Part shown: positions 3,323 to 60,593 of the stretch, in pieces
How positions within the stretch are numbered: position 1 is the first letter of the stretch
Layout of the letters: each line of letters starts with the position of its first letter
From: Deroplatys truncata
Lineage: Eukaryota; Arthropoda; Insecta; Mantodea; Mantidae
Length of the DNA: 64,000 bases
Assembly (NCBI GenBank): GCA_030765065.1
Contig: CM060984.1
Span: 97,631,488-97,695,487 of the forward strand
Direction: 5' to 3'
Translations under genes and position numbers: made by a program
Notes under the pieces: generated by a model
The model's database searches: none
What the model was told of the DNA's origin: nothing
The model's input: the letters and a program-made list of their open reading frames with translations, nothing else

Positions 3323-4146
3323 AAAAAGAGCTGATGTGTTACATTCAGATGACTTTCTCTACCCTCTATATCTTATTAGGGGGTATACAATTTATTCTAA
3401 CAAAAGCATATCTTCCTATCTACTTAATTTTAAGCCAAATAAACGGTTCTGATAATGGCTGCTTTACACATTTCGTTGTTATAGATACAAAGCAAACAGT
3501 GATACTCAAATGTTTTAGAACTGGACGCTCCACGCTGGTCTTAAAACTCTTTGTATAACATCGCATGGAACAACTGAAAATCGACAGGACTTGAAAAGAA
3601 TTGAACAATTCAAACCATTAATAACGGATATCTCGGAAATGGCTAATGTTACAGTAAGTTTTTTGAAATAAATTGTGTTTTAAAGAGATCTATATTTCTT
3701 GTATAATATTTTTTCGTCTTATCGCTTAACGTATACCCGTTATACAGGATTATAGAACATTCCTTCCGAATGAAAATGACTTCAAAGGCTATTTCCAGAA
3801 AATTAAAGATATACATTTTATTTTTATAATAGACATCTTTAATATATGTATTTTAATCAAACTCGTTAGTCATTTTTTAGAAAATCAAAGATTTCAAAAT
3901 ATTTTCTATGCAAAGATAGTTTGGTGGGTGAGGACATGCTTGAAAATCCTTGTGTCGTATGTTTGAAAGGTACTGAACCTAAATACCAAGTTTGGTGTTT
4001 ATCCGACTTTTCATTTTTGAGTTATGCGGTGCACAAATACACACACGGACCTTTTTCTAAAAAGGCTGTTTTTATTCAGGGACCTCAAAACGTGTATTTC
4101 CGGTAAAATATCGGTATCAAAATTTTGGGTGGTAGAGAAACTAAAA
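3323..4146 (+). repeat. Family A copy, diverged
   Basis: GAGCTGATGTGTTACATTC start; ends GTAGAGAAACTAAAAG after losing the palindromic stretch normally found just before the terminus. Confidence 0.72.
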
Positions 4147-5484: not shown

Positions 5485-6172
5485 AGTAGGTAAGGGTTCG
5501 GTAGGAGCCATGAATGGGGAGGAGTTGCTTTTCTAATCCCTTACCAACTTAATGCGCAGTTCATTATATCGGCACCTTTTTTGCACCAAAGGATACATAA
5601 CTTATCGAGAAATTAATTTAAAAAAGAATAAATCGAATCTCATGAGAAATACGTGGTAAAAATTTCCAAACTTTCAACTTTTAAATTTTTCCATTACTTC
5701 TTAAATAGATTTCTTTATAATCAAACATAATTTTGGTTAACATTAAAAATTTTTTAAAACTAATAAACTGTATAATACTTCTAATCTTCTAAATACTAAT
5801 GATATATTAAATTTTGAAAACCTTAAATCCAAAACTATAGTTGATATCGAACAAAAGCCATTATATCTCTTCATCAACATTAAAATTATATATTGAAAGT
5901 CTAAAAGAAACTAAACAAAAATTGCGTAATGGGGAATATTTTAAACTAGCAAAACCTGAGAAAAAGGTTTACGAGAAAATCACATTTTAAAATTTCACGT
6001 GCTGTTTGCACACGGCTACCCACGTGCCTCTACTACAATGCCTGAGAATGTTTTTGAGAACATCTTCATATATAATGCGGAAAATTCAGTTTCGAGTACC
6101 CTTAAACATGCACCTTATACCTAGATGTATTATTTCCAATATTATTGGAACGGAACGAAGACTAAAGTATTT
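5485..6172. other. Unassigned AT-rich interval
   Basis: Very AT-rich, no open frame or known repeat recognised. Confidence 0.4.
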
Positions 6173-7046
6173 AAAAAATCTGATGTGTTACACTCACATG
6201 ACTTTCTCTACTCTTGTACAATCTAATTTTACAAACGCCTATTCTCCATATGCTTCATGTTAATCGAGATATCGAGATGTCAATCTTATTGGTAATTTTC
6301 TTGTAGATGCAAGGGAAATATGGTAGCTTTTAAGCGATAGTCAAATATTTTAACGCTGGTTGCTATGTGGCGCATTCCATTCTCTTTGCATGTCCAGGAC
6401 ATGACAAAAAAAATCAATAACGCATTTGAGAAAAAGTATAAGTATTGGAAAATTTAAGGAAATAATAAGCAATATCTCGAAAACGGTTCACTCAACAAAA
6501 GAAATGTATATGACATAAGTTGTGTATTTTAACGCGATCTACATTATTTGTGTAGTAAAATTTTGTCTATCTCTTATGGTTTACCAGTTATGCAAAAGTC
6601 GTTCACAATGAAGAATACTTTTGGAGACATTCCCAGAAAATTCGAGATATACATTTCATTTCTCATGACATTATGTTAAACATATGATATTTTCATCAAA
6701 ATCGTTAGAGCCATTTTGAGAAAATTAAAATTTTCGAAAAATGTTCCATGAAAAGGGTAATCTGGGGTGGTGGATTTTCTTGAAAACCATCGTGTCGCAT
6801 CTCTGGAACATACTGAACCTAAATTCCAAGTTTGGTGTTTATCCGACTGTTCGTTTCTGAGTTATGCTGTTCACAGACACACAGACAGACAGACAGACAG
6901 ACACACACACGCACATGTTTCCAAAAATGCTTTTTTTGGATTCAGGGGATCTCAAAACATGTATTTCCGGTGAAATCTCGGTATCGAATTTTTGAGTGGA
7001 ATACAATACTTCCCCTAATACTATACGTAGTAGAGAAAGTAAAAAA
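6173..7046 (+). repeat. Family A copy, near full length
   Basis: Starts AAAAAATCTGATGTGTTACA and ends TATACGTAGTAGAGAAAGT plus an A-run. The microsatellite is (GACA)n followed by (CA)n at 6879-6911. Confidence 0.9.
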
Positions 7047-11100: not shown

Positions 11101-12029
11101 AAAAAAAAATCTGATGTGTTACACTCACATAACTTTCTCTACTCTTGTACAAACTATTTTTACAAACGCTTATTCTCCATCTAGTTCATGTTAATCGAGA
11201 TAAACTTTTGCAGACCCTATCTTATTGCTAATTTTCTTGTAGATGTAGGGGAAAATATATTTACAAGGGCAATATAGAAAAACAGTAGCCTTTAAGCACA
11301 TATATATATCTCTTAATAGCTGGTTGCTAGGTGCAGCACCATTCCCTTTGCCACAGATTATAACTCTTTGCATATCCAAGACAAAAAAAATGAATAACGA
11401 ATTCCCATTTGAGAAAATAAGTATTGAAACATTTAAGGGAATAACAAGTAATATCTCGAAAACGGTCCACTCAACAAAAGAAATGTATATGACATAAGTT
11501 GTGTATTTTAACGCGATCTACATTTTTTGTGTAGTGAAATTTTGTCTATCTCTTATGTTTACCAGTTATGCAAAAGTCGTTCACAATGAAGAATACTTTT
11601 GGAGACATTCCCAGAAAATTCGAGATATATATTTCATTTCCCATGACATTATCTTAAACATATGATATTTTAATCAAAATCGTTAGAGCCATTTTTGAGA
11701 AAATTAAAGTTTTCGAAAAATGTTCCATGTAAAGGGTAGTCTGGGGTGGGGGGAGTTTCTTGAAAACCTTCGTGTCGCATCTCTGGAAGATACTGAACCT
11801 AAATACCAAGTTTGGTGTTTATCTGACTATTCGTTTTTGAGTTATGCTGTTCACAGACACACAGACACAGACACACACACACACACACAGACACACGGAC
11901 ATGTTTCCAAAAATGCTTTTTTGGGATTCAGGAGGTCTCAAAACGTGTATTTCCGGTGAAATCTCGGTATCGAATTTTTGGGTGGAATGCAATACTTCCC
12001 CTACTTACTATACGTAGTAGAGAAAGTAA
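11101..12029 (+). repeat. Family A copy, full length
   Basis: Complete from the A-run plus TCTGATGTG to ACGTAGTAGAGAAAGTAA. The microsatellite is at 11855-11898. Confidence 0.92.
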
Positions 12030-12182
12030 CAAACAAAAAACACACACACACACACATACACACACACACACACACACATACATATTTGTCAGTCGCAATG
12101 CTTCATCTGCCTGAGAAGTATGCACATATTTATTCAGCGTATTTTTATGGTTGAATCTTAAATAAACAGTTTTATATAATTC
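12030..12182. repeat. (CA)n microsatellite and short spacer
   Basis: (CA/TA)n at about 12040-12085 directly after the family A copy. An 18-bp AT-rich motif at 12160-12177 recurs at 13442-13459. Confidence 0.6.
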
Positions 12183-12333
12183 TTTTTACTTTCTCTACTA
12201 TGTATAGTAAGTAGAGGAAGTATTGCATTCCACCCAAAAATTCGATACCGAGATTTCACCGGAAATAGATGTTTTGAGACCCTCTGAATCCAAAAAAAAG
12301 CATTTTTGGAAACATGTCCGTGTGTGTGTGTGT

Positions 12334-12422
<89 letters not shown>

Positions 12423-13117
12423 CAGCATAACTCAGAAACGAACAGTCGGATAAACACCAAACTTGGTATTTAGGTTCAGTATCTTTCAGAGATGCGACAC
12501 AAAGGTTTTCAAGAAAATCCCGCCACCCCAGATTACCCTTCACATGGAAGATTTTTCGAAAATTTTAATTTTCTCAAAAATGGCTCTAACGATATTAATT
12601 AAAGTATCATATGTTTAAGATATTGTCATGACAAATGAAATGTGTATCTCGAATTTTCTGGGAATGTCTCCAAAAGTATTCTTCATTGTGAACGACTTTT
12701 GCATAACTGGTAACCCATAAGAGATAGACAAAATTTTACTACACAAAAAATGTAGATCGCGTTAAAATACACAATTTATGTCATATACATTTTTTTTGTT
12801 GGGTGAACCACTTTCGAGATATTGCTTGTTATTCCTTTAAATTTTCCAATACTTATACTTTTTCTCAAATATGTTATTCATTTTTTTTATGTCCTGGACA
12901 TACAAAGAGAATGGAATGCGCCACATAGCAACCAGCGCTTAAAATATTTGACTATCGCTTAAAACCTACCAATTCCCCTTGCATCTACAAGAAAATTAGC
13001 AATAAGATTGACATCTCGATATCTCGATTAACATGAAGCATATGGAGAATAAGCGTTTGTAAAAATAGTTTGTACAAGAGCAGGGAAAGTCATGTGAGTG
13101 TAAATCATCAGATTTTT
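12183..13117 (-). repeat. Family A copy, full length, with compound microsatellite
   Basis: Reverse copy from TTTTTACTTTCTCTACTATG to GTAAATCATCAGATTTTT. The internal tract is (TG)n(TC)n(TG)n at about 12319-12420, much longer than in its relatives. Confidence 0.92.
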
Positions 13118-16366: not shown

Positions 16367-16735
16367 AAAAAAATTCTGATATGTTGCACTCACATGACTT
16401 TTTCTATTCTGTACACACTATTTTCCTTCTTCATCATCTTCCTCCATTCAAGTTTTAGGACTTTCGACCTATTCCGAAGTTAACTAAACTGGTCACTCCA
16501 TCTCCTCCGTTGTCGTCCAACATTTCTTCTTCCTGAAGGTCTGTAAAATAAAGGTTGCTGTGGATACCTTTATTACAAGAAACTATTTTTGCAAACGCTT
16601 ATTCTCTAACTTATTGCTAATTTTCTGTGGGTGCAAGGGGTATATGGTAGCCTTTAAACGATAATAAAATCTCTTAAGAGCTGGTTCCTATGTGGAATAT
16701 TCCACCCTCATTGCATGTCCAGCACATTACACAAA
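16367..16735 (+). repeat. Family A left unit only, carrying a retroposon insertion
   Basis: Left-end sequence from AAATTCTGATATGTTGCACTC to GCATGTCCAGCACATT, then straight into the next copy. 16435-16581 is foreign. Confidence 0.8.
16435..16581 (-). mobile_element. 5'-truncated retroposon with (GAA)n tail
   Basis: Flanked by the 8-bp duplication ACTATTTT at 16427-16434 and 16582-16589. The minus strand ends in a GAAGATGATGAAGAAGG-type tail. The preceding AAAGTCCTAAAACTTGAATG is in the style of LINE or SINE 3' ends. The empty site matches intact family A copies. Confidence 0.7.
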
Positions 16736-17590
16736 AATCTGATTGTTACATTCACATGACTTTCTCTACTCTTGTAAAACTATTTTTACAAACGCTTATT
16801 CGAGATATCGAGATGTTAATCTTATTGCTAATTTTCTTGTAGATGCAAGGGGAATTGGTAGGCTTTAAACGATAGTCAAATATTTTAAGAGGTGGTTGCT
16901 ATGTGGAGTATTCCATTCTCTTTGCATTATCAGAACAAAAAAAAATTAATAACGAATTTGAGAAAAAGTATAAGTATTGGAAAATTTAAGGAAATAACAA
17001 GCAATATCTCGAAAATGGTTCACTCAACAAACAAAAGTATGACATAAATTGTGTACTTTAACGCGTTCTACATTTTTTGTGTAGTAAAATTTTGTCTATC
17101 TCTTATGGTTTACCAGTTATGCAAAAGTCGTTCACAATGAAAAATACTTTTGGAGACATTCCCAGAAAATTCGAGATATGCATTTCATTTGTCATAAAAA
17201 TATCTTAAACATATGATATCTTAATCAAAATCGTTAGAGCCATTTTTGAGAAAATTAAAATTTTCGAAAAATGTTTCATGTAAAGGGTAATCTGAGGTGG
17301 GGGGATTTTCTTGAAAACCTTCGTGTCGCATCTCTGGCAGATACTGAAGCTAAATACCAAGTTTGGTGTTTATCCGACTGTTCGTTTCTGAGTTATGCTG
17401 TTCACAGACAGACAGACAGACACACACACACACACATACATACAGACACACACACGGACATGTTTCCAAAAATGCTTTTTTTGGATTCAGGGGGTCTCAA
17501 AACACGTATTTCCGGTGAAATCTCGGGTTCGAATTTTTGGGTGGAATACAATACTTCCCCTACTTACTATACGTAGTAGAGAAAGTAAAA
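16733..17590 (+). repeat. Family A copy, full length, second unit of the array
   Basis: Left end AAAAATCTGATTGTTACATTC at the boundary; right end GTAGAGAAAGTAAAA at 17577-17590. Microsatellite (GACA)n(CA)n at 17406-17455. Confidence 0.9.
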
Positions 17591-18209
17591 AAGAAGAAGA
17601 ACGAATTCCTGTTTGAGAAGAAGTATAGGTATTACAAAATTCAAACAAATATAAAGGAGCATCTCGGAAATGTTTCACTCGACCAAATAAAAATGTGCAC
17701 GACAGAAATTGTGTGTTTTAACGAGTTCTACATTTTTTGTGTAGTTAAATTTTGTCTATCTCTTACGCTTAACAGTTATGTGAAAGTCATTCAGAGTGAA
17801 GAGGAATTTTGGGTACCTACATTCCCAGAAAATTCAACATATAAATTTCATTTGCTAGTAAATATCTTCAAAATTTGATATTTTAATCAAAATCGTGGGA
17901 GCCATTTTTGAGAAAATCAAAGAGTAGTTTGCGGTGGGGGATTTTCTTGAAAATCTTCGTATCGCATTCTTTGAAGTTACTATACTCACATACCAAGTTT
18001 GATATTTAACCGACTTTTAGTTTTTGAATTATGCTGTTCACAGACAAACACACAGACGGACATAAACACACACACGGACATGTTTGCAAAAATGATTTAT
18101 TTTGATTCAGGACACCTCAAAGCATGTATTTCTGGTGAAATCTCGGTATCGAATTTTTCAGTGGAATGCAATGCTTCCCCTACTTTCCATGCGTAGCAGA
18201 GGAAGTAAA
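17591..18209 (+). repeat. Family A right unit, third in tandem
   Basis: Begins at the internal A-run junction (ACGAATTCCTGTTTGAGAAG) and ends GTAGCAGAGGAAGTAAAAA. It lacks the left unit entirely. Confidence 0.85.
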
Positions 18210-18596
18210 AATGAACAATGAATTCCCATTTGAGAAAAAGCATAAGTATTGGAAAAGTAAAAAAAATAACAAGGAATATCTAGGGAATGGTTCACTCGAC
18301 AAAAAAAGTGTATATGGCATAAGTTGTATGTTTTAACAAGATATACAGGTTTTGTGCAGTAAAATGTTATCTATCTCTTACGGTTTACCAGTTATGCAAA
18401 GGTCATTCAGAATGAAGAGGACTTTTGGGGACATTTCCAAAAAATTGAAGATATAGATTTCATAAAAACACCTTAAACATATGATATTTCAATCAAAATC
18501 GTTAGTCACTTCTGAGAAAACCAAAAATATCGAAAAATATTCCATGTAAAGTGGTCTAGGATGGGGGAATTTTCTTGAAAATCTTCGTGTCTTCGG
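18210..18596 (+). repeat. Family A right unit, fourth in tandem, 3'-truncated
   Basis: Starts at the same internal junction (ATGAACAATGAATTCCCATT) and breaks off after TTGAAAATCTTCGTGTC. Confidence 0.85.
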
Positions 18597-23656: not shown

Positions 23657-24600
23657 AAAAAATCTGATGTGTTACACTCACATTACTTTCTCTACTCTTG
23701 TACAAACTATTTTTACAAACTCTTATTCTACATCTATTTCATATTAATCAGGATAAATATTTGCATAAAAGATCTTTTGACATGCAAAGAAAATTACATT
23801 TTACACATAGCGAACAGTTCTAAAAATATTTAACCATCGCTTAAGGCCTACTATGTTCCCCTTGTTTTGTATTTGCAAGGGCAATATAAGCACAGACATA
23901 TACCTTAATAGCTGGTTGCTATGTGCAGCACCATTCTGTTTGCCACAGATTAATACTCTTTGCATATCCAATACAAAAAAATTAATAACGAATTCCCATT
24001 TGAGAAAATAAGTATTGAAAAATTTAAGGGAATAACAAGCAATATCTCGAAAATGGTTCACTCAAAAAAAAATGTATATGACATAAATTGTGTATTTTAA
24101 CGCGATGTACATTTTTTGTGTAGTAAAGTTTTGTCTATCTCTTATGGTTTACCAGTTATGCAAAATGCGTTCACAATGAAGAATACTTTTGGAGAAATTC
24201 CCAGAAAATTCAAGATATACGTTATATTTGTCATGAAAATATCTTAAACATATGATATTTTAATCAAAATCGTTAGAGCCATTTTTGAGAAAATTGAAAT
24301 TTTCGAAAAATGTTCCATGTAAAGGGTGATCTAAGGTGGGAGGCTTTTCTTGAAACACTTCATGTTGCATCTCTGGAAGATACTGAACCTAAATACCAAG
24401 TTTGGTGTTTATCCGACTGTTCGTTTCTGAGTTATGCTGTTCACAGACAGACAGACACACACACGGACATGTTTCCAAAAATGCTTTTTTTGGATTCAGG
24501 GGGTCTCAAAACATGTATTTCCGGTGAAATCTCGGTATCGAATTTTTGGGTGGAATACAATAATTCCCCTACTTACTATACGTAGTAGAGAAAGTAAAAA
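23657..24600 (+). repeat. Family A copy, full length
   Basis: AAAAATCTGATGTGTTACAC start, GTAGTAGAGAAAGTAAAAA end; short microsatellite at 24445-24466. Confidence 0.92.
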
Positions 24601-32544: not shown

Positions 32545-33400
32545 ATTTTTACTTTCTCTACTACGTATAGTGTTTAAGTATTATATTCCACCCAAAAATC
32601 CAATACCGAGATTTCACTGGTAATACATGTTTTGAGGCACCTGAATAAAAAAAAACATTTTTAGAAAAAGGTCCGAGTGTTTGCGCATGTTCGTTTGTGC
32701 GTATGTGTGTGCCTGTAAGCAGCATAACTCAAAAATGAAAAGTCGAATAAATGCCAAATGTGGTATTTAAGCTTAGTACTTCTAAAGATACGACACGAAG
32801 ATTTTTAAGAAAATCCCTCCACCCCAAACTACCCTTTACGGGAACATTTATCAAAATTTCGGTTTTCTCAAAAATGGCTCTAGTGATTTTTATTAAAACA
32901 CCATATATTAAAGATATTTATATGACAAGTAATGTATATCTTGAATTTTCTGGAAACAGCCTGTATAATCCTCTTCATTCAGAAGGAATTTGTTATAATC
33001 TTGTATAATTGGTAAACGTTAAACGATAGACGAAAACGTACTATACAAAAACTTAGATCTCTTTAAAACACACAATTTATTTCAAATAACTTTTTTGTGG
33101 CAGTAGCCGTTTCCGAGATTTCCGGTTTTAATGGTTCAATTTCGTCAATACTTTGTCATTCATTTTTAAGTCCCGTTGATTTTCATTGTTTCCCGCGGTT
33201 GCATGGAAACAATATGGAATTTTAAGGCTAGCGTGTAGCGTCCATCCTTAAGCATTTGACTATCTCTATTCCCTTTTGTATCTATAACAAATTGTGTAAT
33301 GTAGCTTTTCTGCAAAAGTTTATTTGGTAAGAATAGTTGTGCACCCACTAATAAACTATAGAGAGTAGAGAAAGTAATGTGAATGCATCACTTCAGTTTT
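32545..33400 (-). repeat. Family A copy, full length, older subfamily
   Basis: TTTTTACTTTCTCTACTACG start to GAGAAAGTAATGTGAATGCA end. The short GT-rich tract lies at about 32677-32715. Confidence 0.88.
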
Positions 33401-33470
33401 TCTTGTTTGTGATTCAAAAGGTAATGGAAAGCATAGAAACACGTTTACCTGTTTATAAACGAACCTGACG

Positions 33471-47727: not shown

Positions 47728-48707
47728 TTACTCTCTGTACTGCGTATAGATAGGGGAAAAAATTAAATTGAATTTTATTTATAGACGCTCTTTAATTGCT
47801 GTCCTTAGCGTTCTATCTACATCGGCCGTGAAAGACCAGTAATTTTGCTCAGAGGCCTCTTTATCAGGCTTGGGGTTCTTTTACGTGACGTAAATCTGCG
47901 ACACGAGACCACCGGCTTTACTTCCCATCCGAAGGTAGTCATGCTAAGTAGGGAAAGGTTTGTATTCCACCCAAAAATTCTAATTCGAGATTTTGCCGGA
48001 AATATATACTTTGAGGCCTCCTGAACCTTAAAAAAACGAAAAAAAAACAGATTTTTAGAAAAAGGTCCGTGTGTGTATCTGTGAACAGCATAACTCAAAA
48101 ATTAAAAGTCGGATAAATACCAAACTTGTTATTTAAGTTCAACATCTTCCAAAGATTTCCAAGAAAATGCTCTCACCCTAACTACCCTTTATAAGGGACA
48201 TTTTTAGAAATTTTTGATTTTCTAAAAAAATGACTAACTAGTTTTATTAAATTACCATACATTAAAGATATTTACATGACCTTCATTCGGAAGGAGTTTT
48301 GTGTAAGCTTAAAGCATACTACAAAAAACATATCTTTAAGACACAAATTATTTCAAATAACTTCTTTTTATGACATCGATCATTTCTGAGATATCCGTTA
48401 TTAATGATTCGAATTGTCCATTACTTAGCTCTTCTTTTAAAGTCCTGTCAATTTTCAATTGTTTCTCGCGATGTTATGCAAAGAGGATGGAATTTTAAGG
48501 TCAGTGTATAGCGCTCAGTTGTTAAACATTTGACTATCGCTGTTCCCTTTGTATCTATAACGAAATGTGTAATGTAGCTATTTCCGGGAATGTTTATTTC
48601 GATGAAAATGAAGTAGATAGGAAAATATACTACCGAAAGAATAATTTGTATACCCACTAATAAGCGAGAAAGGGTAGAGAAAGTCATATGAATGTAACAG
48701 ATTTTTT
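47728..48707 (-). repeat. Family A copy interrupted by a type 3 SINE
   Basis: TTTACTCTCTGTACTGCGTA at the start, then the SINE (about 47760-47940), then AAGTAGGGAAAGGTTTGTAT and on to GTCATATGAATGTAACAG. Confidence 0.85.
47760..47940 (-). mobile_element. SINE (type 3) inserted in family A
   Basis: Minus strand carries GTGTCGCAGATTTACGTCAC, CTCTGAGCAAAATTACTGGT and ATAAATAAAATTC. The TAGGGGAAA and TAGGGAAAG flanks look like a diverged target duplication. Confidence 0.7.
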
Positions 48708-58257: not shown

Positions 58258-59047
58258 TAAAAAAATGTGATGTGTTACACTCACATGACTTTCTCTACTC
58301 TTGTACAAATTATTTATACAAACGCTTATTCTCCATCTACTTCATGTTAATCGAGATAAACATTTGCAGACTCTATCTTATTGCTAATTTTCTTGTAGAT
58401 GTAAGGGGAATATATATTTACAAGGGCAATTTGGAAATACAGTAGCCTTTAAGCACATACATATCTCTTAATAGCTGGTTGCTAGGTAGCACCATTCCCT
58501 TTCCCACAGATTAATACTCTTTGCATATCCAAGACAAAAAAAATGAATAACGAATTCCCATTTGGGAAAATAAGTATTGAAAAATTTAAGGGAATAACAA
58601 GTAATATCTCGAAAATGGTTCACTCAACAAAAAATGTATATGACATAAATTGTGTATTTTAACGCGATCTACATTTTTTGTGTAGTAAAATTTTGTCTTA
58701 TCTCTTGTGGTTTACCAGTTATACAAAAGTCGTTCACAATGAAGAATACTTTTGGAGACATTCCCAGGAAATTCAAGATATACATTTTATTTGTCATAAA
58801 AATATCTTAAACATATGTTATTTTAATCTAAAATCGTTAGAGCCATTTTTGAGAAAATTAAAATTTTCGAAAAATGTTCCATGTAAAGGGTAATCTGGCG
58901 TGGGAGGATTTTTTTGAAAACCTTCTTGTCGCATCTCTGGAAGATACTGAACCTAAATACCAAGTTTGGTGTTTATCCGACTGTTCGTTTCTGAGTTATG
59001 CTGTTCACAGACAGACACACACACAGACACACACAAACGGACATGTA
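58258..59047 (+). repeat. Family A copy inserted in the LINE, right end lost
   Basis: AAAAAAAATGTGATGTGTTACA start; runs to CACACAAACGGACATG and stops there, short of the final 130 bp. Confidence 0.88.
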
Positions 59048-59693: not shown

Positions 59694-60396
59694 AAAAAAA
59701 TCTAATGTGTTACACTCACATGACTTTCTCTACTCTTGTACAATCTATTTTTACAAACGACTATTCTCCATATGCTTCATTATAATCGAGATATCGAGAT
59801 GTCAATCTTATTGGTAATTTTCTTGTAGATGCAAGGGGAATATGGTAGCTTTTAAGCGATAGTCAAATATTTTAACGCTGGTTGCTATGTGGCGCATTCC
59901 ATTCTCTTTGCATGTCCAGGACATAAAAAAAATGAATAACGAATTTGAGAAAAAGTATAAGTATTGGAAGATTTAAGGAAATAACAAGCAATATCTCGAA
60001 AACGGTTCACTCAACAAAAGAAATGTATATGACATAAGTGGTGTATTTTAACGCGATCTACATTTTTTGTGTAGTAAAATTCTGTCTATCTCTTATGGTT
60101 TACCAGTTATGCAAAAGTCGTTCACAATGAAGAATACTTTTGGAGACATTCCCAGAAAATTCGAGATATACATTTCATTTCTCGTGACATTATGTTAAAC
60201 ATATGATATTTTAATCAAAATCGTTAGAGCCATTTTTGAGAAAATTAAAATTTTCGAAAAATGTTCCATGTAAAGGGTAGTCTGGGGTGGGGGGATTTTC
60301 TTGAAAACCTTCGTGTCGCATCTCTGGAAGATACTGAACCTAAATACCAAGTTTGGTGTTTATCCGACTGTTCGTTTTTGAGTTATGCTGTTCACA

Positions 60397-60439
<43 letters not shown>

Positions 60440-60593
60440 ACACACAGACACACACACGGACGTGTTTCCAAAAATGCTTTTTTTGGATTCAGGGGGTCTC
60501 AAAACATGTATTTCCGGTGAAATCTCGGTATCGAATTTTTGGGTGGAATGCAATACTTCCCCTACTTACTATACGTAGTAGAGAAAGTAAAAA
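59694..60593 (+). repeat. Family A copy, full length, reference copy
   Basis: Left unit 59694-59924, internal A-run 59925-59932, right unit 59933-60593. Microsatellite (CA)n with CAGA interruptions at 60398-60457. Confidence 0.94.

Follow-up and report, generated by a model that had tools for sequence, protein, structure and literature searches.

HINE-type repeats in the genome of Deroplatys truncata: a probable Helentron partner, T-tract targets and nested copies

The features of Helentrons and of their associated HINEs are defined in PMC4067079, which, in the part of that article consulted here, also proposes that the endonuclease guides the choice of T-tracts. The autonomous Helentron described there encodes a Rep, a PIF1 helicase and a C-terminal AP-type endonuclease, carries an S in Rep motif 2 and has its termini in common with its HINEs. 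The same account treats the HINE or DINE-1 elements found in mite, Culex and Drosophila as deletion derivatives of such an element; they bear subterminal inverted repeats of ~12–15 bp, a 3´ palindrome and microsatellites, and occupy T-rich targets without duplication. DINE-1 additionally has an inner repeat beside its 5´ end. The Cg_HINE of the Pacific oyster combines HINE ends, an inner repeat and a microsatellite with T-rich or TT targets that are not duplicated (PMC7492417, in excerpt). Canonical Helitrons terminate in CTRR and use A|T as their target (PMC4067079). Composite forms are on record for the FoHeli Helitrons of Fusarium oxysporum, in which two 5´ termini share one 3´ terminus, and were explained by self-insertion followed by transposition from the outer 5´ to the first 3´ terminus (PMC5148889, in excerpt); plant Helitron arrays with multiple 5´ ends and single 3´ ends have also been described (PMC12628747, in excerpt).

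The repeat family described here, family A, was followed from a stretch of 64,000 nucleotides (the window) on contig 10 of the 4.29-Gb genome of the mantis Deroplatys truncata. It shares the repeats, the 3´ palindrome, the microsatellite and the T-rich targets of the mite, Culex and Drosophila elements, the inner repeat of DINE-1 and, probably, their origin by deletion. It resembles Cg_HINE in the same way, although the satellite-like central array of the oyster element was not seen in family A. The mite repeats lie 38–60 bp from the 3´ end, compared with 22 nt between the 3´ repeat and the T-run in family A, and this repeat is not itself palindromic, unlike its counterpart in HINE/DINE-1 as portrayed in the consulted part of PMC4067079. 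Family A also differs from the mite, Culex and Drosophila elements in its number, with at least 173,596 exact 5´ 20-mers. Its ends show neither the 3´ CTRR nor the A|T target of canonical Helitrons, which share with its putative partner a rolling-circle Rep-helicase.

Ends, copies and abundance of family A

The copies and end features at 11101–13117 are as follows.

11104–12027, minus strand: family A HINE copy 1, with its 5´ end at 12027 and the 3´ hairpin at ~11114–11131, followed by a T-run
12016–12027, minus strand: 5´ subterminal inverted repeat of copy 1, ACTTTCTCTACT
11132–11143, minus strand: 3´ counterpart of that repeat in copy 1, reading AGTAGAGAAAGT on this strand
12188–13117, plus strand: family A HINE copy 2, with an intact 5´ repeat and a decayed 3´ subterminal repeat and hairpin
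12188–12221, plus strand: 5´ subterminal repeat of copy 2 with the complementary inner repeat (5´ hairpin)

Elsewhere in the window, HINE sequence includes the following.

6170–7040, minus strand: complete family A HINE copy
16733–17586, minus strand: complete family A HINE copy, set into an older one at its internal T-tract region
17587–18206, minus strand: 5´ part of that older HINE copy, split by the 16733–17586 copy; remainder pieces at ~16369–16737
18207–18591, minus strand: 5´ part of a HINE copy of yet greater age, next to which the 5´ end at 18206 comes; remainder not found
23657–24595, minus strand: complete family A HINE copy, matching the first 849 bp of the autonomous element at 88.8%
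32551–33401, plus strand: diverged relative with a 5´ end of the same type and a variant 3´ end, 27.3% from the majority
58259–59046, minus strand: HINE copy without a 5´ end
59695–60588, minus strand: complete family A HINE copy, used as alignment reference

Copies 1 and 2 form a head-to-head pair spaced by 160 bp. Copy 1 is ordered ACTTTCTCTACTACGTATAG...AGTAGAGAAAGT-TATGTGAGTGTAACACAT-CAGATTTTTTTTT; subterminal inverted repeats of 12 bp, within the 11–15 bp range, are present near both ends (ACTTTCTCTACT and AGTAGAGAAAGT), a palindrome (ATGTG-AGTGTAA-CACAT) lies near the 3´ terminus, and the T-run starts 22 nt beyond the end of the 3´ repeat. Copy 2 ends with AGCAGGGAAAGT, in which the hairpin partner is broken. 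The terminal sequence of the family is CAGATTTTT, sitting in T-tracts, and a typical copy starts with ACTTTCTCTACTACGTATAGTAAGTAGGGGAAGT and ends with AGTAGAGAAAGTCATGTGAGTGTAACACATCAGATTTTT. The first 12 bases of this start can pair with an inner near-complement, and the resulting 5´ hairpin, in the commoner form of the 5´ end, folds better than its shuffles (DNA z −2.8); the 3´ hairpin, which is short, shows no folding advantage over its shuffles (DNA z −0.7 and −0.4). Complete copies have a median length of 876 bp and diverge from the majority sequence by a median of 4.0% (range 2.2–27.3%; 27 copies for both values).

An earlier note on this DNA had ascribed Helentron-associated, HINE-like ends to family A, and the ~0.88-kb copies with 12-bp subterminal repeats, a 3´ hairpin and T-runs on both sides bear this out. 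The order of start, inverse repeat, ATGTG-AGTGTAA-CACAT hairpin and T-run is found in copy 1 as the note gave it; its extension to each copy fails at copy 2, where the 3´ repeat and hairpin have decayed. The internal microsatellite is a CA repeat. The head-to-tail arrays of the note are absent at 11101–13117, which holds an inverted pair, and occur at 16369–18591 and in 8,715 junctions of the genome. The window indeed lacks a Rep/helicase: the partner protein described below gives no tblastn match there at E≤1, the window copies contain no ORF of ≥130 codons, and the sole stop-to-stop ORF of that size in the window encodes 148 aa.

HINE-type sequence accounts for 14,541 of the 64,000 window bases at E≤1e-6 (reversed queries, 0), and the 12-mer with at most one mismatch occurs 24 times against a shuffle mean of 0.37. 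The 3´ ends at 3331–3363, 33362–33401 and 48673–48684 differ in what precedes the repeat (CCCACTAATAA or similar) and keep nearly the same terminal hairpin; they probably belong to a second family.

Across the genome, the exact 12-mer was counted 537,760 times (267,484 + 270,276), one per ~8 kb, and its backwards control 2,012 times (1,038 + 974). The backwards control was 0 for every pattern longer than the 12-mer, including the 34-mer with the 3´ palindrome (57,121 + 57,751 exact matches). In ten 4-kb spots taken at round coordinates on ten contigs, a small sample, HINE/Helentron-type sequence made up 6,000 of 40,000 bp (15%) and was found in 8 of the 10 spots (bootstrap 95% interval, 6.7–24.2%; reversed queries, 0). 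HINE repeats have filled a sizeable share of the genome, partly by jumping into one another. A Helitron-type share of ~15% is not unheard of, because Helitrons make up 16.7–21.9% of morabine grasshopper assemblies (PMC7754599, in excerpt) and 7–20% of gomphocerine grasshopper genomes (PMC7486953, in excerpt). Near the start of contig C1 (20511–119361; L001–L008), 29 matches lie nearly all ~3,408 bp apart, and the one unit of this tandem array that was read includes a family A copy. Contig C16 measures 707 Mb, compared with 134–339 Mb for the other large contigs seen.

The probable autonomous Helentron partner

Matches to PF14214 number at least 152 in the genome. Thirty Rep loci were divided by motif into 10 with RGSPHEH, 11 of the RGLPH type and 9 with neither. 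All ten RGSPHEH loci (L029–L038), as well as an element on C9, carry the motif YYQRVEFQMRGSPHEH; the ten have no stop within the match and open frames of 428–2,441 codons. Rep motif 2 of the partner has an S where canonical Helitrons have an L (RGSPHxH, Helentron-type), a distinction that serves in PMC4067079 to tell Helentrons from Helitrons. The canonical-type RGLPH motif of the 11 other loci sets them apart from the partner. All 11 of these Helitron Rep copies (L009–L012, L014–L017, L019, L024 and L026), which share the genome with the long-frame Helentron, contain stops inside the match.

The C9 element has an ORF of 2,324 codons, and its Pfam matches comprise PF04843, DUF6570, Helitron_like_N, PIF1 and UvrD_C_2. 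The PIF1-family helicase (PF05970) scores 100.1 bits in the same ORF in this one scanned copy. In the C-terminal 251 residues of this copy, the endonuclease match PF14529 scores 28.1 bits, just above its cut-off of 27.4, and PF03372 stays below its own cut-off. A search of solved structures with the endonuclease gave a sole match at E 0.44, which is not an endonuclease. No cut-and-paste transposase or reverse-transcriptase domain is among the Pfam matches of the scanned copy. PF04843 is presumably a domain of the cysteine-protease type. We infer that it corresponds to the OTU-like protease of Helentrons (PMC4067079). The scanned copy thus has the same set of Rep, PIF1 helicase and C-terminal endonuclease as the Helentron of that account, and the partner resembles it further in the S of Rep motif 2 and in termini common to its HINEs.

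The ends were examined at 11 loci: the C9 element and ten others chosen for long frames (2,108–2,543 codons). The same 3´ hairpin and T-run are present at all 11, and the 3´ end lies 4,977–5,005 bp past the start of the Rep match at ten loci, with an equivalent position in the C9 element. Given one HINE 12-mer per ~8 kb of genome, mere proximity would be weak evidence; the ends are linked to the Rep gene because the distance is fixed across loci. The own 5´ end of the element is seen at 10 of the 11 loci, and the piece from the remaining locus, L045, begins at element position 53. The usual nesting is reversed at L045, with a HINE copy lodged in the 5´ region of the autonomous Helentron.

Six of six window copies match the start of the partner at 88–93% identity over the first ~650–850 bp (one copy in two pieces) and its end at 86–97% over the last 33–42 bp. 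Family A keeps the first ~650–850 bp and the last ~33 bp of the partner and is devoid of the coding region. Among 11 copies, four of them shared with the loci examined for ends, the DNA of the Rep region is 96.5–99.8% identical (55 pairs), which suggests that the partner has moved recently.

T-tract targets, nests and composite units

For the analysis of flanks, 85 exact 12-mers were collected, 15 from the window and 70 from 40 regions within the first 9 Mb of one contig, C1; the 29 matches of the 3.4-kb tandem array and C1:9072982 were excluded. Simple rules sorted them into 43 5´ ends (two of which, L074 minus and L078 plus, are doubtful by eye), 39 3´ ends and 3 that are neither. In all 27 complete copies, at least two Ts precede the 5´ end (median 5) and at least two follow the 3´ end (median 6). 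The two flanks share only Ts and at most one non-T base in 27 of 27 copies, a pattern with which an all-T duplication would be compatible. Five of the 27 (L061, L062, L073, L078 and L085) are composite units with HINE sequence on one side only, and two represent a single duplicated site (L076/L077); these copies and the remaining 20 give the same result. The partner, like family A, lies in T-tracts with no duplication beyond the Ts.

Filled and empty sites could be compared at several places. In the window, the 16733–17586 copy interrupts an older one in its internal tract region, and the HINE internal T-tract is also the insertion site at L102 and L105. The autonomous unit L049/L050 splits the T7 tract of an antisense HINE, leaving six Ts on each side compared with seven in the intact tract, and L089/L106 has diverged antisense HINE sequence on both sides. 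The L076/L077 site is a single unit in a row of ~50-bp minisatellite units and is an approximate match: four of the five visible neighboring units have a G after the T-tract, which the filled unit lacks. Filled HINE tracts have gained about four to five Ts relative to empty ones, either the element's own or a duplicated tract, which look alike because the targets are themselves T-tracts.

The number of Ts at the 5´ end has a sharp peak. Exactly five Ts precede 100,260 of the 173,596 exact 5´ 20-mers in the genome (57.8%), six precede 23,479 (13.5%) and four precede 7,069; other lengths account for 42,788 combined. These counts include nested and duplicated copies, so not all are independent insertions. 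The 43 sampled 5´ ends follow two (4), three (1), four (3), five (24) or six (11) Ts, and none follows a longer run. Neither this peak nor units with one 5´ end and several 3´ ends were met in the surveyed part of the Helitron-type literature, in which neither was searched by name.

Each check that the earlier note had called for turned out in its favor. Its T-rich junctions without clear duplication recur in every complete copy, ends are now defined on 43 5´ ends, 39 3´ ends and 27 complete copies, and empty sites are available, cleanly for the HINE T-tracts and less so for the minisatellite. The autonomous partner that it placed outside the window is represented by a Rep-helicase-endonuclease element with the same termini. 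Neither of the findings that it had named as contrary was made: no consistent target-site duplication appeared (at most one shared non-T base in 27 of 27 copies), and the C9 partner bearing the same ends encodes Rep and PIF1, with no transposase or reverse transcriptase among its Pfam matches.

T-tracts within the family's own sequence are used as targets. A preference for its own sequence as such is not supported: by reading of the listing, 11 of the 43 5´ ends (26%) lie in or directly behind HINE-type sequence, which makes up 23% of the window and 15% of the spot sample. Another internal tract, with the sequence AATACTTATACTTTTT or one close to it, has likewise received 5´ ends (L095, L096, L063, L064 and L086), and at L095 and L096 two 5´ ends are ~478 bp apart. 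Mirror-image pairs of ends with identical or nearly identical flanks lie a few kilobases apart on C1 (L063/L064, L091/L092 and L095/L096; 244/248 kb, 7.368/7.376 Mb and 8.177/8.187 Mb), as if within large inverted repeats or owing to assembly fold-back.

Copies nest in the T-tract of older copies, and some units have 5´ or 3´ ends in excess. The junction of nested copies, GTTATTCATT...ACTTTCTCTACT, is present 19,546 times in the genome and the tandem, head-to-tail junction 8,715 times (4,369 + 4,346); both backwards controls are 0. In L105, two 5´ parts precede a full copy and two 3´ parts follow it, and L102 is a nest of two levels. Three 5´ ends and two 3´ ends are found in L104, one 5´ and two 3´ ends in L085 and L073, and one 5´ and four 3´ ends in L089/L106. 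Composite units combine the ends of different copies.

The autonomous loci are for the most part composite as well. At 9 of the 11, the fetched piece contains two 5´ ends: a HINE 5´ part of 626–679 bp comes first, and the element's own 5´ end follows behind GTTATTCATTTT, in this case with four Ts. This arrangement is unlike that of the Helentron in the consulted part of PMC4067079. The inner 5´ junction has nearly the same sequence every time, which suggests one inherited event and not nine. Downstream of the Helentron's own 3´ end, the HINE remainder is present at six loci and absent at five. The L049/L050 unit, with two 5´ ends and one 3´ end, seems to have been inserted whole, because a single antisense HINE target lies half on either side of it, as judged from its two end pieces with a gap of ~8 kb between them. 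L057 is the simple autonomous form with one 5´ end. The two 5´ termini and one 3´ terminus recall the FoHeli composites; the family A nest junctions, however, run into thousands, and there are units with one 5´ end and two or four 3´ ends, unlike in FoHeli. The fungal Helitrons, for which the consulted part of PMC5148889 reports no endonuclease, have target sites other than those of the partner Helentron.

Origin of the family and of its composite units

Family A is best explained as a HINE, that is, as a non-autonomous derivative of an endonuclease-encoding Helentron in this genome, a reading to which we assign a probability of about 0.95 on the basis of sequence comparison. Inverted repeats near both ends and a very high copy number would also suit a MITE whose 12-bp repeats are recognized by a cut-and-paste transposase, and such elements were formerly classed as MITEs (PMC4067079, in excerpt). 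The flanks of 27 of 27 complete copies, which have nothing in common except Ts and a single further base at most, the asymmetric layout with a 3´ repeat 22 nt inside the T-run and the hairpin next to it, and the Rep-helicase-endonuclease encoded by an element with the same ends leave this origin next to no probability. A LINE or SINE was rejected, given that there is no shared duplication and no reverse-transcriptase domain among the partner's Pfam matches. It is also very improbable that the partner is of the Helitron2 type, a Rep-helicase devoid of endonuclease, and not a true Helentron: the C-terminal 251 residues give a PF14529 match that passes its cut-off (the PF03372 match does not), and the Rep motif has the Helentron-type S, against which stand the absence of an endonuclease among the Pfam matches up to residue 2290 and a target of several Ts that resembles the Helitron2 rule in the consulted part of PMC5148889.

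The rivals for the arrangement of ends carry more weight. Units whose 5´ and 3´ ends differ in number could stem from recombination between nested direct repeats instead of transposition that pairs different ends. Nests place 5´ parts of ~610–680 bp and 3´ remainders of ~210–240 bp in direct repeat, an arrangement from which unequal exchange could remove one member. Such an origin fits poorly with the C9 element, L049, L051 and L055 (4 of 11), where the two-5´-end unit ends at the Helentron's own 3´ end and other sequence comes next, with the mere ~33–42 bp that this 3´ end shares with the HINE end, and with the antisense HINE matches on both sides of L049/L050 (~8 kb between them unread). We regard recombination as unlikely to be the general source of these units, and it remains a rival for some of them. 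Head-to-tail arrays, in turn, may arise by bypass of the terminator during rolling-circle replication, an explanation of arrays offered in PMC4067079, and not by repeated insertion into T-tracts. The 8,715 head-to-tail junctions are what bypass would leave behind, with exactly five Ts in 55 of 100 listed (hand count). Nests such as L105, in which 5´ parts stand in order and 3´ remainders follow the full copy, are not a bypass product, and junctions at the internal tract outnumber tandem ones (19,546 compared with 8,715, a rough comparison of unequally strict patterns). Bypass as the source of the arrays is possible, if rather doubtful.

For the preferred reading of family A as a HINE, the following course of transposition can be proposed. 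The partner's Rep would nick at the 5´ end, its helicase would peel off one strand up to a 3´ hairpin, and the peeled strand would be joined into a T-tract that the endonuclease had opened. A 5´ end may also pair with a downstream 3´ end from another copy, and nests would thereby yield chimeric mobile units. In its full form, which we advance tentatively as a possible and not yet a probable account, the family would carry its own landing site and its ends would act as separable start and stop signals. Joining would take place after the fifth T, often in the tract of an older copy, and later transposition could run from any 5´ end to any downstream 3´ end, bypassing up to three stops, so that nests would continually release chimeric units, including the commonest autonomous form examined. 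If this is true, the T5 position would be the footprint of the endonuclease.

Elements of this kind are already known; the scale of the family, its matched long-frame partner, the sharp five-T peak in the flank and the legibility of the nests are unusual. In the published accounts, as far as the consulted parts go, the choice of targets and ends by Helentrons has so far been inferred from sequence. More than 170,000 exact 5´ ends, a long-frame partner, a five-T peak and readable nests come together here in one genome, and such material makes the role of the endonuclease in the choice of T-tracts and that of the 3´ hairpin as a stop signal testable by counting and in cells. It also illustrates that one family can occupy a noticeable part of a multi-gigabase genome.
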